Program-made: the position numbers and the translations under genes | Notes under the pieces: generated by a model | Told to the model about the DNA's origin: nothing | The model's input: only the letters and a program-made list of their open reading frames with translations | Database searches by the model: none | From: Deminuibacter soli | GTDB lineage: Bacteria > Bacteroidota > Bacteroidia > Chitinophagales > Chitinophagaceae | Assembly (NCBI RefSeq): GCF_003412455.1 | Contig: NZ_QTJU01000001.1 | Coordinates: 1,302,001-1,366,000, forward strand | Reading direction: 5' to 3' | DNA length: 64,000 nucleotides | In this document: piece after piece, positions 7,916-57,389 of the stretch | Layout: each line of letters begins with the position of its first letter | Numbering within the stretch: the first letter of the stretch is position 1

Positions 7916-8797
7916 TTAAACAGTGTACCGGTCAATGGTCCAGGCCTTGCCGCCAATATTGCTGATCAGCTTTTGCAGGGTGTTGCGGTTATTGTACAGG
8001 CGTTTGTCGGTAACAATGGCTGCAGGCAATATATCTGCCGATTTTGCCGCAAGCGCGTCAACCGTATTGCCCGTGTATTTTTCAAAAAAGCGTTGCAGCA
8101 GGTCGCGGAACTCTTTGAGGTCCCAGTAATGAAACACCTGGTCTGCCGCTTCTTTAATGGCAATGCCTTTTTGCTGAAAGGAATAACAGAAAGAGAACTG
8201 TTCAACCGTATGCCTGGGGAACAGCGGGTACAATGCATCGGTAAGTGTCAATGCAGCTTCAACCACAGGCAGGTGTTCGGCCGATAAACCAATTAACCCG
8301 GCATTGTACATATGCGTATGCAATGCATTGGGCTCGCGGAGTGCTGCAATAGCATTGGTTTCAAGAAACTGTTTCCACTTGCGCATGTGCAGGTTCTGCG
8401 GCTGGTCAATACGGCCCTCATCTGCATGAAACAATACCTGGTTGGGCTGAATGGCATTAAACAGGTGCTCGCAGGTATCAAGACAGTATGTGTCTGTATC
8501 GAGGTAAATAACTTTACCGCCGCGCTGCTGCAGGCAATGTTTGATAATTTCGATCTTAACGCGGTGAACAAACTGTATATTGCCTTTCCACGCGGTAATG
8601 CCGGCTGCTGTAATGGTTTGTATATGCAGCGGCATTTTTTCCTTAAACGCGGCAAATGCTTCCGGCTGATCGGTATATACCACTACATCGGGAATAGGCT
8701 GGTTGCCATAAGTGGCCAGTAAACGCAGCAGCGAATACCTGCACTCGTTGATAATGCCTGCCTGCCCGTATGCCTGGTATAATAAGCTTTTAGTCAT
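7916..8797 (-). CDS. putative glycosyltransferase with DTDT motif
   Basis: A 293-residue protein from the ATG at 8797; a longer frame to 8830 exists, but MTKSLLYQAYGQ begins the conserved-looking fold. VIYLDTDTY (97-105) holds a DxD metal site and resembles GT8-type and related GT-A enzymes that carry YxDxD. No membrane helix or signal peptide is visible. The function is inferred only from this motif and from the immediate neighbourhood of three GT2 genes. It leads the minus-strand transferase run, and the next gene starts 3 bp after its stop. The substrate cannot be read from the sequence. Confidence 0.7.
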   Translation of the reverse strand: MTKSLLYQAYGQAGIINECRYSLLRLLATYGNQPIPDVVVYTDQPEAFAAFKEKMPLHIQTITAAGITAWKGNIQFVHRVKIEIIKHCLQQRGGKVIYLDTDTYCLDTCEHLFNAIQPNQVLFHADEGRIDQPQNLHMRKWKQFLETNAIAALREPNALHTHMYNAGLIGLSAEHLPVVEAALTLTDALYPLFPRHTVEQFSFCYSFQQKGIAIKEAADQVFHYWDLKEFRDLLQRFFEKYTGNTVDALAAKSADILPAAIVTDKRLYNNRNTLQKLISNIGGKAWTIDRYTV

Positions 8798-51415: not shown

Positions 51416-52153
51416 TTAACCCAGTACCTCCTGCAATACCTGCAGGGTACGCATTTGCCCGAAGTCTGCAATGTGCAGGGCTACATATTGCTGCAGCGCC
51501 TCAATAAGTTCGCGGCGCATAAGGCGGTTCATGGGAATGTTTTCGAGATCGTTGTAAAACTGGATATTGTGAATGCGTGAGGTTAGGCTGGCAGGTTCGC
51601 CGCTGATATAGTGCGGATGCAAAGGAGATTCTGCAATAAACTGTCCTTCCTGCAAATCCAATACAGGTGTTTGTTTGCTGAATTCACCCTGCAGCTGAAA
51701 ACCCAGTTCGGTACCCAGGTGCAGGGTGAAGTATAATGGCAGGTTGGCAACCAGTGTGTCGTTGCCGCGGTCGAGCTGTTTCAGGGTATCTTCTATCAGG
51801 TAAAATAATTCAGGGTTAGCTTCGGGTTGTTTTAAGCTGTGTTGCACCAGCTCTACCACGTACATGGCAACAGCATTGCGTATTACGTTAAAAAACACCT
51901 GCTGGTAAATATAGCCCCACTGGTAGTCTTTAATAAACTGCAGGTTCTTGAGATCGTTATGGTACACTTCCATTTCCAGTACCGCGCCTGGCTGAAAGTA
52001 AGCTGCCTTGCCTGCAGAGCGTTTGGTGGTTTGCCGCACGCCTTTTACCATGTAGTTCTGCACGCCGAACAGCTCGGTGTAAATGGTGCTGATTACACTG
52101 GTTTCACCGTACCTGATGGTGCGCAATACAATGCCTTTGGTTTTATGCGTCAT
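51416..52153 (-). CDS. recO: DNA repair protein RecO
   Basis: A 245-residue recombination mediator that loads RecA with RecR. The N-terminal OB-fold has KGIVLRTIRYGETSVISTIYT and GVQNYMVKGVRQ; the C-terminal helical domain has FFNVIRNAVAMYVVELVQHS and LFYLIEDTLKQLD. The zinc cysteines found in Deinococcus-type RecO are absent, as in other Bacteroidota. It starts inside the 3' end of the preceding large gene (4-bp ATGA overlap), so translation is probably coupled. Confidence 0.93.
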   Translation of the reverse strand: MTHKTKGIVLRTIRYGETSVISTIYTELFGVQNYMVKGVRQTTKRSAGKAAYFQPGAVLEMEVYHNDLKNLQFIKDYQWGYIYQQVFFNVIRNAVAMYVVELVQHSLKQPEANPELFYLIEDTLKQLDRGNDTLVANLPLYFTLHLGTELGFQLQGEFSKQTPVLDLQEGQFIAESPLHPHYISGEPASLTSRIHNIQFYNDLENIPMNRLMRRELIEALQQYVALHIADFGQMRTLQVLQEVLG

Positions 52154-55100
52154 GAAACGTGCGCGGGAATTTCTTTTACATTACCCGTACGTTTTAATAC
52201 ACCCCAATGCTGCAGCTCACCTTTAATGGCGCGCTTAAACGAACGGAACAATACCACAATCATCAGCCAACGGTACACAAGTCGCTGCGGAATCATCCAT
52301 ACCAGCTTGGCTGGTTTCTCTTTTTCCAGTCCAAAGGCCAGTAGCGCAATGGCTGCGTCTACAATCATGAATACGAGGTAATAGGTAAATATTTTACCGC
52401 GGTTATCGGTCATTAAACCGAGTATCATAATAATATCTGCCAGTGGTGTAAACAGCGGTATAATGTATTTGAACAACAGTATATCGGGCAATGCGAGCCA
52501 GCCAAGTGATGTATACTTGTGGTTGAAAACAGCATCGTTGTTTTTCCAGAAGGTTTGCATTACACCAAAGCTCCAGCGGAAACGCTGTTTGAAAAACTGT
52601 TTCAGCGTTTCGGGCGCTTCAGTAAAGGCCAGTGCTTTTGATTCGTTGGCTACTATGTAACCGCAGCGCAGAATACGGATGGTGATGTCACAATCTTCTG
52701 CAAGGGTATCGGTGGTAAAGCCGCCTGCCGCTTCAATGGCTTCTTTGCGGAAGGCCCCGATGGCACCGGGTACAACCGTGATGGCATTTACATAGGCAAA
52801 GGCTTTGCGGTCGAAGTTCTGGCTGGTAATGTACTCAATACTTTGCCAGCGGGTAAGCAGGTTTCTTTCGTTGCCTACTTTTACAGTGCCTGCCACTGCA
52901 CCTATTTTTTCATTTACAAACGAACGCACCAGCATACGCACTGCATCCGGGCGCAGTTTGGTGTCTGCATCTATACAAACCACGTAGTCTGCACTGGATT
53001 GCGCAATGCCGTAGTTGAGTGCAGAAGCCTTGCCTCCATTGGGTTTGGTAAATACACGCACCAGCGGGTGATCTTTAAATGCTTCGTACACTACCTCGTA
53101 TGTGCGATCGCTGCTGCCATCGTTTACGAAGATGATTTCGAAGTTGGGATAGTCGCAGGCCAGCAGGTTTTGCATGGAGCTTACGGCATTCACTTCTTCG
53201 TTAAAGGCAGGCACAATAATGCTTACCAGCGGGTTGCCGGGCAAGCCGCTCAGGTGCGCCAGTTTTTTTTCTTTTCTTTTCTGCAATACAGCCAGCACGC
53301 CGATAATGGCCAGGCGTATCATGCTGATGGTTAAGAAAGACAGGAACAATATTTCAAGAATATGCCCGAGATAATATCCACCCTGGGCGAGTATCATGTT
53401 CATTTGAATAAAACCATAACCACTGTCTTTGGGTATGGGCGGCATCAGTTCTTCTTTTGATTTGCCCAGCAAATCGGCAATGGTGGTAAAGCGGTAGCCC
53501 TGGCTTTGAAAGTATTTGATAATGCGGGGCAAGGCTTTAATCGTGGCTTCACGCGGACCGCCTGCATCGTGCAGCAGTATAATGTTGCCGCGGTTTTGCT
53601 CACGTACTATGCGGTTGAAAATAGTGTCGGCATTGTAGGTGGGGTCAATAGATGCCTGCCAGTCTTCCGGGTCAATGCTCTCGCCAATGGTTAAATAATT
53701 GCGCGAGCGGCTAAGGGCAACCGGTATAATCTCTTCTGCTTTTTCAGGCTCACTATCCGCATTAAACGGCGCACGGAACAGGATGGTGCTGCGACCGATA
53801 ATACATTCAATCAGCAGCCTGGTGGCATCCATTTCAAGCAATGCACGCTTTTTACTGATGTTGGCAATATTGGGATGTGTAAAGGTGTGGTTGCCTATTT
53901 CATAGCCCTCGTTGTAAATTCTTTTTACCAGCGGTATGTAGTTTTCGGCCTGTATGCCTACTATAAAAAATGCTGCCGGTACTTTGTACTTGGCCAGGGT
54001 ATCGAGAATTTGTTTGGTGTACACCGGGTCTGGACCATCATCAAAGGTGAGTACCATTTTTTTGTCTTTCGGTGCGCCCCATTTTTTTACCACGTAGTTG
54101 GATGGCAGTGAATCATAATGTTCCTCGGCAATCAGGTATTCTGTGCTGTCGAGTTGTATGCTGATATGGCCGTTGGCGGGCGTGCTTTGCACATCGAGTA
54201 CCTCACCTTCGCCAATATAATCCACATCGTTGGTGCCGAGAATGCTGCTGAAATCTTCGTAATTGAACGAGGTTAAAGCGGCCTTGGTCATGGGCAAATC
54301 ATAGAAGTCCCACAAGCGGCTGTCTTCATTACCCAGGCGCCACATGGCTGTGCCTGCCAGTCCGTATTCTGTGGCAAAACGGATAGTATTGAAATTAGTG
54401 GCAGCATCGGCAAAGTGTACCTGGTGCGCTACATTGTTGTCGTCGGTATAGCTGAACTTGGCGTTGTATGTGTTATTGTCAAAGTCAATCGTGGCATCAT
54501 TGTCACGTGCCAGTGTAAGTGCCTCCTGGAAAGAAACGGTTTGCACGGTATCCTTCGACCAGTCGTACCCGTAACCCGCAATGTTAAGTACAATCTTTTT
54601 CGACGGTACTTTCTTCGCAACCTGGTCTACCGCCGCTTCAATCCATTTCTGGCTCGATATAGGTCCGGGGCCGGTATCATCCGAATGTTCGTCGTATGCC
54701 ATCAAAAACAGGTAATCATTGTAGTTGCTCAGTGCTTCGTAGTCGTAGTCTTCATTAAAAGCCGCAACGTTTTGGGTTACCAGGTAACCATTGCTGTGCA
54801 GGCGTTCGTACAGTTCTTTTAAAAAGGTAGTGAGGTATTCGTTCTGGTCTTCCTTTAAATCTTCAAAGTCCACATTCAATCCTGCAAAATCGTACTGTTT
54901 AAAAATGTGCAGCAGCGATTGAATCAGTCTTTCTTTTTTAGCGGGATCATGCAATATGCGGTGAACAGCTTCGCCCTGCCATTTGCCTTTGGCATAGTTG
55001 GAAAGCATGGGCATTATTTTAACGCCTGCTTTCTGAATTACGTCGAGTGCACGGGTATCGATATTGGTGTAAACAGTATCTGCTTTGGGATCGATAAACA

Positions 55101-55545
55101 GCCATTCGGGAATAACCAGGTTAAGCTTCGATACGTTTTTGCGCAGCGAGATGAGTGATTGCAAGTCCCAGTCAACATAAAACGCGGCACGAATGCCAAG
55201 GCTGTCGCTGAAAAGTGATGAGTTGGAAAGGTTAAGGGTTTTGTTTTTCTGGCCCTGCCCTTTACCGGCAGCCCATTTGGCGTTGATAGCGCTGCGGAAA
55301 CCCTTGTATTTTTTGCTGAGCGGACTTGTGGCGAAAATGGGTTTATCATCCTGCAGGGCGCTTTTCATGGCTGCACCCAGTTTGGGTAGCGAGGGGGTAT
55401 ACACGTTGCGGATGGCGAAATAAACCACTACTCCTGCGAGCAGCAGCAGGAAAAGCAATATGCGGCCTACCCATTTAAAGCGTTGCCACCGGGTAGGTGT
55501 GGCTGTTTGAAATATTTGTTTGGCAGGGGTTTGAATTGTGCTCAT
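52150..55545 (-). CDS. trimodular GH18-deacetylase-glycosyltransferase membrane protein
   Basis: A 1131-residue protein from the ATG at 55545. Order: basic N-terminus, TM helix (about 30-45), a GH18-type hydrolase domain (about 115-420) with GLNVDFEDL (Asp226, Glu228), and GTAMWRLG; then a NodB deacetylase domain (about 495-690) with TFDDGPDP (Asp501/502), NHTFTH (His553, His557), RAPFN and LLHDAGG; a TM region (about 725-755); a processive GT2 domain with VPAFNEE, VNDGSSDRT (804-812), IDADT (858-862), LAEDCD and QRFRW (987-991); and C-terminal TM helices. All catalytic motifs of the three domains are intact. It is coupled to recO by ATGA and lies downstream of carB. Confidence 0.93.
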   Translation of the reverse strand: MSTIQTPAKQIFQTATPTRWQRFKWVGRILLFLLLLAGVVVYFAIRNVYTPSLPKLGAAMKSALQDDKPIFATSPLSKKYKGFRSAINAKWAAGKGQGQKNKTLNLSNSSLFSDSLGIRAAFYVDWDLQSLISLRKNVSKLNLVIPEWLFIDPKADTVYTNIDTRALDVIQKAGVKIMPMLSNYAKGKWQGEAVHRILHDPAKKERLIQSLLHIFKQYDFAGLNVDFEDLKEDQNEYLTTFLKELYERLHSNGYLVTQNVAAFNEDYDYEALSNYNDYLFLMAYDEHSDDTGPGPISSQKWIEAAVDQVAKKVPSKKIVLNIAGYGYDWSKDTVQTVSFQEALTLARDNDATIDFDNNTYNAKFSYTDDNNVAHQVHFADAATNFNTIRFATEYGLAGTAMWRLGNEDSRLWDFYDLPMTKAALTSFNYEDFSSILGTNDVDYIGEGEVLDVQSTPANGHISIQLDSTEYLIAEEHYDSLPSNYVVKKWGAPKDKKMVLTFDDGPDPVYTKQILDTLAKYKVPAAFFIVGIQAENYIPLVKRIYNEGYEIGNHTFTHPNIANISKKRALLEMDATRLLIECIIGRSTILFRAPFNADSEPEKAEEIIPVALSRSRNYLTIGESIDPEDWQASIDPTYNADTIFNRIVREQNRGNIILLHDAGGPREATIKALPRIIKYFQSQGYRFTTIADLLGKSKEELMPPIPKDSGYGFIQMNMILAQGGYYLGHILEILFLSFLTISMIRLAIIGVLAVLQKRKEKKLAHLSGLPGNPLVSIIVPAFNEEVNAVSSMQNLLACDYPNFEIIFVNDGSSDRTYEVVYEAFKDHPLVRVFTKPNGGKASALNYGIAQSSADYVVCIDADTKLRPDAVRMLVRSFVNEKIGAVAGTVKVGNERNLLTRWQSIEYITSQNFDRKAFAYVNAITVVPGAIGAFRKEAIEAAGGFTTDTLAEDCDITIRILRCGYIVANESKALAFTEAPETLKQFFKQRFRWSFGVMQTFWKNNDAVFNHKYTSLGWLALPDILLFKYIIPLFTPLADIIMILGLMTDNRGKIFTYYLVFMIVDAAIALLAFGLEKEKPAKLVWMIPQRLVYRWLMIVVLFRSFKRAIKGELQHWGVLKRTGNVKEIPAHVS

Positions 55546-55677: not shown

Positions 55678-55722
55678 AAAAACGGTTTTCTGCATTACAC
55701 GGGGTAAACAGAAAACCGTTTT
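55678..55722. terminator. terminator after carB
   Basis: 14-bp stem AAAACGGTTTTCTG/CAGAAAACCGTTTT with a 16-base loop, 21 bp after the carB stop. It separates carB from the trimodular gene. Confidence 0.75.
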
Positions 55723-55742: not shown

Positions 55743-57389
55743 TTATCCTTCAAAGCTGCTGTAGAAGTACGGTGTTTTGGCTTCAAATTCTGCGCTGCAG
55801 GTATCTACCATTTTAAACACGCGCGTAATGCCAAGGGCCTTGCGTTTTTCGTATACTTCCTCGTCGGTGGTATTGCTGTGCAGTATGCGGGCAATCTGCT
55901 CGTCGCTGAAGCCTTTTTTCTTGGCATCTTTCAGCAGTTCAACAGGCAGGGAATCGAGGGTATATTTCGCGATTTCCTTTTCTATATTGCAGATATCCTG
56001 TATCTGGTAAATAAACCAGCGGTCAATACCTGTTGCTTCCACAATGGTTTTAACACGCACACCCTGCATCAGCGCATCTTTGATACGGAAAATGCGGTCC
56101 CATTTCGGTACCTTGATGTATTCTACCAGGTCTTCGCTTTTCATCATGCTTTTGCCATAGTAACCCAGGCCAACTGCCTCGTTTTCCAGGCTCTGGCAGG
56201 CTTTCTGGATAGCTTCGGTAAAGCTGCGGCCGATGGCCATTACTTCTCCCACGCTTTTCATTTGCAAACCCAGCGTGTCGTTAGCGCCTTTAAACTTGTC
56301 GAAGTTCCAGCGGGGCACTTTTACAATTACGTAGTCCAGTGCAGGTTCAAAATAAGCCGAAGTGGTTTTCGTGATCTGGTTTTTCAGCTCATCCAGGTTG
56401 TAACCAATGGCCAGTTTGGCGGCAATTTTGGCAATGGGGTAACCGGTTGCTTTAGATGCCAGCGCAGAAGAACGGCTAACGCGGGGGTTAATTTCGATGG
56501 CAATCAGTTCTTCTGTTTCAGGATTCAGGGAGAACTGCACGTTACAGCCGCCGGCGAAATTGCCGAGGTCGCGCATAATCTGGATGGCAGTATTGCGCAT
56601 CAGCTGAAATGCGGTATCGCTGAGGGTCATTGCCGGCGCCACGGTAATGGAATCGCCGGTATGGATACCCATGGGGTCAAAGTTTTCTACGGTACAGATG
56701 ATTACTACGTTGTCGGCAGAATCGCGCAGCAATTCCAGCTCAAACTCTTTCCAGCCCAGCACGGCTTTTTCTACCAGTACTTCGTGAATGGGTGAAGCAG
56801 ACAAACCGCGGTTCAGCGCTTCGTCAAGGTCGGCTTTTGTGTGCACAAAACCACCGCCTGTACCACCAAGGGTAAAGGATGGGCGGATAACCAGCGGGAA
56901 GCCGATTTCCTGTGCAAACTCCTTGCCTTCCAAAAAGCTGTTGGCTGTTTTGGCAGGGGCAACGGGAACGCCGAGCTGAATCATCCACTGGCGGAATTTC
57001 TCCCTGTCTTCTGCTTTGTCGATGGCTTTAATATCTACACCAATCAAACGCACATTGTATTTTTCCCAGATCCCAAGCTCTTCAGCTTCTTTCGCCAGGT
57101 TCAACGCAGTTTGTCCGCCCATGGTAGGCAGTACGGCGTCAATTTCGTTTTCCTGGAGAATCTGTTCAATGCTGTCTACAGTAAGCGGTAACAGGTACAC
57201 CCTGTCGGCCATCATGGGGTCGGTCATAATGGTAGCCGGGTTGCTGTTAATAAGAATAACTTTAATTCCTTCTTCGCGCAAGCTGCGGGCGCTCTGCGAT
57301 CCGGAATAATCAAACTCACATGCCTGGCCTATTACAATAGGACCAGAACCGATAATAAGGACAGTTTTGATAGATGTGTCTCTGGGCAT
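55743..57389 (-). CDS. carB: carbamoyl-phosphate synthase large subunit, N-terminal half only
   Basis: 548 residues covering the carboxyphosphate half of CarB: preATP-grasp ([20 protein letters not shown]), ATP-grasp ([33 protein letters not shown] with the metal ligands, [20 protein letters not shown]) and the helical oligomerisation domain ([33 protein letters not shown]). It ends at YSSFEG, where E. coli CarB (1073 residues) reads YSTYEEE at the junction to its second half. The carbamate-phosphate half is not in the window. A genuine split gene, as in some Aquificota and archaea, fits better than decay because the sequence is intact to a domain boundary. Confidence 0.93.

Follow-up and report, generated by a model that had tools for sequence, protein, structure and literature searches.

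In Escherichia coli, the deacetylase and hydrolase PgaB and the polysaccharide synthase PgaC are separate proteins, and the hydrolase of PgaB does not belong to GH18, a group of enzymes known for acting on beta-1,4 linkages. Rhizobial NodB and NodC are likewise separate enzymes, with chito-oligosaccharides as their product and no GH18 component. The outer membrane is the predicted site of PgaB action, and divergent Gram-negative PgaB clades have been described in which the deacetylase is fused to a glycosyltransferase and pgaA and pgaD are undetectable; going by that description, these fusions carry no hydrolase, and GH18 is not mentioned in the main text of the study (PMC7112194). In Streptomyces, MatB holds a CE4 domain outside and a GT2 domain inside on one chain, with a TM helix between them, and makes PNAG together with MatA; its GT2 domain is nearest to PgaC and its CE4 domain to PgdA (PMC5972031, available part). 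Finally, the accessible part of a survey reports GT2 and deacetylase domains joined to cellulose-, xylan- or chitin-type hydrolases (PMC4928363), and its supplement may include the GH18-CE4-GT2 architecture considered below.

Here we describe a protein of Deminuibacter soli in which the three activities of PgaB and PgaC lie on one chain. It is encoded in the window (the whole 64,000-nucleotide stretch of DNA that was analysed) by an intact open reading frame on the minus strand, 52150..55545, with 1131 codons from ATG followed by a stop. The preliminary description had proposed a GH18 hydrolase, a NodB deacetylase and a GT2 synthase on one 1131-residue membrane protein with intact catalytic motifs, and this was borne out by the signature residues and by a Pfam scan in which all three domains scored far above their cut-offs. 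The combination, introduced there as one of domains that usually sit in separate proteins, is not rare: relatives were found in 65 of the 147 genomes of its family (in one piece of more than 1000 residues in 59 of them), in 22 of 395 genomes of its class and on 21 plasmid records from other groups, with Alphaproteobacteria and Deinococcus among the carriers outside Bacteroidota. Among the matches listed from the open-licence literature we found no characterisation of the fusion, and the protein is apparently common and conserved in Bacteroidota and uncharacterised. Judging from its sequence, it probably works as a self-contained synthase whose product is a partly de-N-acetylated GlcNAc polymer, and by analogy it is best read as being, in kind, MatB plus a GH18.

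Relatives were compared in an alignment of 88 non-redundant proteins, which counts the window protein itself and has 72 rows from Bacteroidota. Two rows are shortened (L039, cut by a contig start, and L087 from Limimaricola, which ends about 80 residues early). Left out were L041, whose frame is broken into two ORFs, the identical or near-identical rows L038, L106, L107 and L115, and nine of the 65 carriers (G314, G322, G332, G347, G362, G365, G377, G407 and G420), six of which have the protein short or in pieces. Because the 88 proteins align from end to end, the fusion is no assembly join and is beyond chance. Mean pairwise identity among the 72 Bacteroidota rows was 0.67 for GT2, 0.62 for NodB, 0.49 for GH18 and 0.48 for the GH18-CE4 linker. 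Three groups (f3, f5, and f4 with G238 and Prevotella) came back in each of the three domain trees, so the unit has been inherited whole in those groups. Four long second GT2 hits in Bacteroidota were set aside by Pfam, three as GT2-sulfatase proteins of another architecture and the fourth as a GT2 alone. Outside Bacteroidota, the Pfam scan of full-length rows covered L084 from Deinococcus, which passes for GH18 (38.5 bits), and L086 from Sulfitobacter, which gave no GH18 match at 1e-5 and whose GH18 region is recognised solely from its likeness to the window protein (23%, E 1e-17).

The GT2 synthase domain (residues 771-1005; 52531..53235, minus strand, as are all features of the protein) matched Pfam Glycos_transf_2 at residues 775-938 with 112.3 bits against a cut-off of 23.3. 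Residues D809, D859, D861, E950, D951, Q987, R990 and W991 are kept in 88/88 rows and supply the D, DxD, ED and QxxRW motifs of processive GT2 enzymes; QxxRW and the flanking TM helices suggest a processive synthase. The domain is 36% identical to E. coli PgaC (147 bits) and 30% to NodC of the rhizobium Sinorhizobium numidicum (93 bits). Its best NCBIfam match is TIGR03937 (PgaC/IcaA), at 209.3 bits about half of the equivalog cut-off of 422.3. In the GT2 tree, the branches leading to E. coli PgaC and to NodC are very long (8-10), so that the tree leaves the closest kin unsettled.

Hydropathy places TM helix 1, with the N-terminus inside, at residues 27-45 (55411..55467; peak 2.47), TM helix 2 at residues 732-750 (53296..53352; peak 2.32) and a C-terminal membrane region at about residues 1012-1107 (52225..52512), with spans at 1014-1046 and 1050-1075. 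Structure prediction of the full-length protein was poor (pLDDT 49.2, pTM 0.31), and a third C-terminal helix, 1079-1107, shows only in that low-confidence model. Positive charges mark the inner side: residues 1-26, before TM1, hold four K/R and no D/E, and residues 753-772, after TM2, five K/R versus one D/E. Judged by hydropathy only, this layout agrees with the topology first proposed, in which GT2 is cytoplasmic and GH18 and CE4 are periplasmic. In E. coli PgaC the first TM lies at 5-23 and the second within 29-52, and the fusion, with its pair at 27-45 and 732-750, is best read as a PgaC-like synthase with the deacetylase and hydrolase inserted between its first two membrane helices. The hydropathy topology also reproduces the arrangement of MatB. 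In place of MatB itself we compared L088, a Streptomyces plasmid protein of the same kind, which aligns at 40% over GT2 and 35% over CE4 and shows no GH18 in Pfam. As described in the available source, MatB differs from the fusion in having no GH18 domain, in needing MatA and in its monoderm host.

The CE4/NodB deacetylase domain (residues 491-700; 53446..54075) matched Polysacc_deac_1 (PF01522) at residues 492-595 with 101.1 bits against a cut-off of 23.1. It carries the D-D/H-xxx-H metal triad and the catalytic motifs, with D502, D503, H553, H557, R591, D628 and H659 kept in 88/88 rows. The domain belongs on the NodB/PgdA side, being 35% identical to NodB of S. numidicum, and BLAST gave no significant match to PgaB. 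As the preliminary description proposed, a GH18 takes the place of the PgaB hydrolase. A linker (residues 437-490; 54076..54237) joins CE4 to GH18 and is recognisable in the full-length rows inspected, those from Sulfitobacter and Deinococcus among them.

The GH18 domain (residues 113-436; 54238..55209) matched Glyco_hydro_18 (PF00704) at residues 170-406 with 85.4 bits against a cut-off of 29.6, the match beginning only at profile position 60. A predicted structure of residues 100-440 (pLDDT 80.6, pTM 0.84) has the TIM-barrel fold and matches whole GH18 barrels, with Z 33.2 across 307 residues for SleL (4s3j) and Z 32.7 across 301 residues for 5jh8, and hence the boundaries of 115-420 given earlier are about right. 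The catalytic motif GLNVDFE (residues 222-228; 54862..54882) had been taken for a changed form, but it is ordinary in its subgroup (GINVDFE in 5jh8, GINLDFE in 4q6t), and Asn224 is present in 72/72 Bacteroidota rows. The D-x-E motif and the tyrosine of MxYD are in place: D226, E228 (which by GH18 precedent we take to be the general acid) and Y284 are intact in the window protein and in 79/88 rows. The site is altered in the remaining 9/88, including each of the six from genus g27 and the two from Rhodobacterales, and the altered rows still have intact CE4 and GT2 sites. Trimming is therefore not essential family-wide, which qualifies the suggestion that a single chain polymerises, deacetylates and trims, although this is still the best fit. 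These altered sites could also mean that the protein is a conserved chimera with at least one dead domain, the GH18 serving, for instance, only as a binding platform; we regard this as highly improbable, as the GH18 residues are intact in the window protein and most rows and every CE4 and GT2 residue tested is kept. The best explanation of the alignment is that CE4 and GT2 would form an indispensable core and GH18 an accessory that has decayed in some lineages.

The closest solved structures bear on a further alternative. Those of GH18 include the spore cortex-lytic SleL and YdhD, and those of CE4 include peptidoglycan deacetylases, as would be expected if the hydrolase and deacetylase acted on peptidoglycan and their fusion to GT2 served localisation or regulation. 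We consider this improbable: the CE4 of MatB likewise resembles PgdA, yet the product is PNAG (PMC5972031, available part), and the CE4 and GT2 sites are jointly invariant in 88/88 rows, whereas in certain lineages the GH18 has decayed.

For synthesis of a GlcNAc polymer, the arrangement suggests the following course. The cytoplasmic, PgaC-like GT2 would add GlcNAc from UDP-GlcNAc, presumably processively, and the chain would leave through the protein's own membrane helices. CE4 and GH18, in the periplasmic loop between the helices that in a separate PgaC would be TM1 and TM2, would be positioned at the chain exit, where CE4 would strip N-acetyl groups to give a cationic chain and GH18 may then cut it and fix its length. 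As to linkage, the MatB precedent would favour a PNAG-like beta-1,6 polymer and the GH18 partner a chitosan-like beta-1,4 polymer; the beta-1,4 habit of GH18 enzymes fits poorly with a PgaC-like beta-1,6 synthase. A PgaA-like porin, proposed as a possible partner, went undetected in the window's genome (15 weak matches, the best 27 bits against a cut-off of 366.65), as did PgaB (TIGR03938, no match at E 0.01) and PgaD (PF13994, no match at E 0.1). This is accordingly not a pga system, and the missing partners, which leave no known outer-membrane route, count against this reading. If a deacetylated GlcNAc polymer is made without Pga partners, one gene would suffice as a minimal route to material like PNAG or chitosan, which enzyme engineering could use, and the question would arise how, or whether, the polymer gets across the outer membrane.

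In some relatives, the neighbouring genes hint that the protein may help to make the cell envelope positively charged. Sphingomonads and some Bacteroidota encode it together with the lysyl-phosphatidylglycerol gene mprF. In all four sphingomonad records examined (of 11 plasmid records that reach 80% cover or more), mprF lies near the trifunctional gene and acvB/virJ is also found in the flanks, with four different arrangements; the Sphingobium gene overlaps virJ, and mprF and a two-component system come next. MprF was found in 21 of 77 Bacteroidota carriers examined, and mprF lies within 5 kb in three of the 21 (G285, G403 and G385); without G285, the source of the idea, this is 2/20 versus 0.077 expected (Poisson P 0.003, for a 5-kb limit set afterwards and genomes that are not independent). 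The product might then be a cationic glycan of the envelope, or a glucosaminyl glycolipid, that works with lysyl-phosphatidylglycerol turnover, not an exported biofilm polymer, a reading we hold to be possible though unlikely. GT2 would extend a lipid or short chain with GlcNAc, CE4 would expose the amine, and MprF/AcvB would tune lipid charge. There is precedent in HexSDF of Clostridioides difficile, a glycosyltransferase, polysaccharide deacetylase and MprF-like flippase that make an aminohexosyl glycolipid (PMC10128005, available part), and an archaeal MprF-type flippase likewise neighbours a deacetylase and a glycosyltransferase (PMC5898192, available part); the lack of a detectable PgaA also fits. 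HexSDF differs, in its available description, in being encoded by separate genes, in its glycolipid product and in that HexS is annotated as a monogalactosyldiacylglycerol synthase, not a GT2, whereas QxxRW and the TM layout here suggest a processive synthase. Moreover, the window's genome (G000) has no MprF-like partner of the HexSDF type by PF09924 (0 matches) and no VirJ match, and 56/77 carriers show no MprF. By tblastn (E 1e-5, sphingomonad and G285 references), neither MprF nor VirJ was found in the window, in 21 of 22 other Bacteroidota flanks, or in the examined flanks of Prevotella, Deinococcus, Sulfitobacter, Limimaricola, Streptomyces and Kocuria.

A related and rather doubtful idea is that this one-protein machine makes a short cationic glucosamine glycan retained in the diderm envelope, a carbohydrate counterpart of lysyl-phosphatidylglycerol, for which a porin would be unneeded and which GH18 would keep short. 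Such a retained glycan, if real, would add a third kind of system to those of exported PNAG and the secreted Nod factor, and the link to mprF/acvB suggests that some bacteria may control the charge of glycan and lipid in one programme.

No export partner is conserved beside the gene, in that no such neighbour cluster occurs among 32 loci. DUF3131, encoded downstream in Rhodobacterales, had no solved relative at E 0.01, and a Kocuria neighbour annotated as 'chitinase' was set aside as evidence of a split partner, having no Pfam match at 1e-5. In the window, the ATG of a minus-strand neighbour (51416..52153), presumably recO-like, overlaps the stop of the trifunctional gene (ATGA). A functional meaning of the recO and carB neighbours was rejected, since they recur only beside relatives from its own family or order. 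A 14-bp inverted repeat followed by T's, read by eye after the carB-like gene (55679..55722, minus strand), is likely a terminator, and the trifunctional gene thus probably has its own promoter. An in-frame TTG is also present 39 nt upstream of its ATG. The biggest common neighbour cluster, at 10/32 loci, resembles two-component regulators when judged by eye and from annotation, and is loosely linked.

The open reading frame at window positions 52150-55545 (minus strand) runs from an ATG start without an internal stop and encodes the single 1131-residue chain proposed in the preliminary description. The claim that three catalytic domains are joined in it was likewise borne out by Pfam, where GH18 (residues 170-406), CE4/NodB (492-595) and GT2 (775-938) all reached at least 2.8 times the bit cut-off. 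Because the GH18 match starts partway into the profile, residues 100-440 were modelled separately (pLDDT 80.6, pTM 0.84). Its best structural matches were SleL (4s3j; Z 33.2, 2.8 A over 307 residues) and chitinases from Chromobacterium (5jh8; Z 32.7) and Pseudomonas (class V; 4q6t; Z 32.2), so the GH18 barrel is complete. For the whole chain the model was poor (pLDDT 49), and no conclusion was built on it. Hydropathy placed TM segments at 27-45 and 732-750, with a further membrane region towards the C-terminus (from residue 1014), upholding the suggested layout of a cytoplasmic GT2 and two periplasmic domains, and the presumed cytoplasmic flanks of the first two segments are richer in positive charge. 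In E. coli PgaC the first two TM segments lie within 5-23 and 29-52. The simplest description is a PgaC-like synthase whose TM1-TM2 loop holds periplasmic enzymes, about 680 residues in all; this would locate these enzymes where the chain should emerge. One chain would act as synthase, deacetylase and cutter of a GlcNAc polymer, the best-supported mechanism and, in our judgement, a probable one.

The GT2 domain is closer to E. coli PgaC (36%, 147 bits) than to rhizobial NodC (30%, 93 bits). The CE4 domain matches rhizobial NodB (35%, 118 bits), and is also near solved peptidoglycan deacetylases; its score against PgaB (30 bits, E 3.2) was not significant. PMC5972031 describes the same mixed affinity for the Streptomyces CE4-GT2 protein MatB and, with an antibody and dispersin B, identifies the MatAB product as PNAG. 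The window protein can be regarded as a variant of the MatB/PgaBC kind, and it is not part of a pga system. Searches of its genome, which is 99.83% complete, found nothing above noise for PgaA (27 bits against a cut-off of 366.65) and no match to PgaB or PgaD; in each search one of 14 control genomes, presumably E. coli, exceeded the cut-off. Gram-negative glycosyltransferase-deacetylase fusions lacking pgaA and pgaD have been reported, with other export modes suggested, in PMC7112194. The genome holds five NodB and two GH18 matches, the window protein being counted in both; a second NodB-type match (G000:C11:1293682-1293912) lies about 8 kb ahead of the window's start.

The GH18-CE4-GT2 protein is a family, not an accident. 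A search of 296 genomes spread over the phylum produced 17 matches of 1040 residues or more, near full length; this count includes the own genome, and every match fell in the window's class. Matches at 1e-150 occurred in 22/395 genomes of that class, and matches at E 1e-100 in 65 of the 147 of its own family, 59 of them as a single piece of more than 1000 residues. Named relatives spanning the whole protein in the genome scan were Chitinophagaceae, Chitinophagales or unplaced Bacteroidota MAGs. Occurrence beyond Bacteroidota was drawn from plasmid records. Of 1199 that matched, 21 cover at least 80% of the protein: Prevotella (1; 48% identity) and, at 31-36%, Sphingobium (8), Novosphingobium (2), Sphingomonas (1), Sulfitobacter (7), Limimaricola (1) and Deinococcus (1). 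Streptomyces and Kocuria plasmid records matched solely across CE4-GT2; Pfam found no GH18 in the Streptomyces ORF, and the Kocuria protein is named 'bifunctional polysaccharide deacetylase/glycosyltransferase family 2' at NCBI. Among the papers listed, no characterisation of a GH18-CE4-GT2 protein was found in the open-licence literature. The Bacteroidota trees of GT2, NodB and GH18, whose deep order is not resolved, all recover the f3, f5 and f4+G238+Prevotella groups, and the GH18-CE4 linker is recognisable in alignment across Bacteroidota, Deinococcus and Sulfitobacter; both observations fit one fusion passed on as a unit. In one genome (G347:C313:23034-26374) GH18-CE4 and GT2 are adjacent ORFs (728- and 486-aa frames), a natural split or a draft error. 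Another Bacteroidota fusion, of an N-terminal GT2 with a sulfatase-type PF00884 domain (1144-1259 aa), was seen at L064 (G012), L065 (G150) and L066 (G021).

In an alignment of 88 non-redundant proteins including the window's own (81 Bacteroidota, seven others; two shortened at one end), seven CE4 residues and eight in GT2 do not vary in any row, in keeping with the intact motifs described for these domains. GH18 residues D226, E228 and Y284 are all kept in 79/88. The set is altered in L042 (Phe for Tyr), in genus g27 (L018-L020, L153-L155; Ile for Tyr in 6/6, with Glu altered in four rows and Asp in one) and in the two Rhodobacterales rows (L086, Sulfitobacter; L087, Limimaricola; Ser for Glu); the sister genus g26 keeps the site in 4/4 rows. 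The altered sites in g27 and Rhodobacterales mean that GH18 is decaying in at least two separate lineages, with the synthase-deacetylase core retained. The g27 proteins, with CE4 and GT2 intact, form a naturally occurring range of hydrolase domains in decay. The first domain of Sulfitobacter no longer matches the Pfam GH18 profile and is identifiable solely through similarity to the window protein. A DUF3131 gene lies 3' in both Rhodobacterales records (L086 12000-14537, 4-nt overlap; L087 8961-11450); that it substitutes for the lost hydrolase is speculation. In L087 an in-frame stop near 8715 removes about 80 last residues, and coding sequence goes on in the same frame.

In most Bacteroidota loci examined no shared envelope partner was found near the gene, and flanking genes varied; the largest shared neighbour cluster, two-component-like regulators, occurred at 10/32 loci. 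In sphingomonads MprF and VirJ/AcvB lie near the gene in 4/4 records examined, in four arrangements: in Sphingobium it overlaps the VirJ/AcvB gene, after which come MprF and a two-component system; in Sphingomonas MprF is downstream and VirJ/AcvB divergently oriented; in Novosphingobium MprF and VirJ are upstream in one record and downstream in the other. According to PMC13197417, AcvB of Agrobacterium hydrolyses lysyl-phosphatidylglycerol and shares an operon with the synthase. Since MprF also adjoins the gene in G285, a Bacteroidota genome of another family (f5), other carriers were checked: 19/68 plus 2/9 Bacteroidota carriers have MprF, and it lies within 5 kb of the gene in G285, G403 and G385, with VirJ beside it in the latter two. 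Leaving out G285, MprF was nearby in 2/20 against 0.077 expected (Poisson P 0.003), for carriers that are related and a 5-kb limit picked afterwards. Such linkage speaks for the main rival, a cationic envelope glycan or glycolipid linked to lipid charge control, for which HexSDF (PMC10128005) offers a functional parallel; PMC5898192 notes a similar gene neighbourhood in an archaeon. MprF was not found in most carriers, the window's genome included, or in the flanks searched from Deinococcus, Prevotella, Rhodobacterales and actinobacteria. We consider the rival rather unlikely beside single-chain synthesis, deacetylation and cutting of a GlcNAc polymer.

The window gene has on one side a carB-like gene, followed by a likely terminator, and on the other a recO-like gene, whose start overlaps the stop of the window gene (ATGA, 52150-52153). 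As a recO-like gene also follows the homologue in G309 (L149 11472-12212, by eye), some members of the family may co-transcribe the two genes. The gene at 55743-57389 (minus strand), which we take to be carB-like, encodes 548 aa, half of the usual large subunit. The length is likewise 548 aa at L037 and L040 (85% identical) and L149, which suggests that a split carB-like gene is characteristic of the group.
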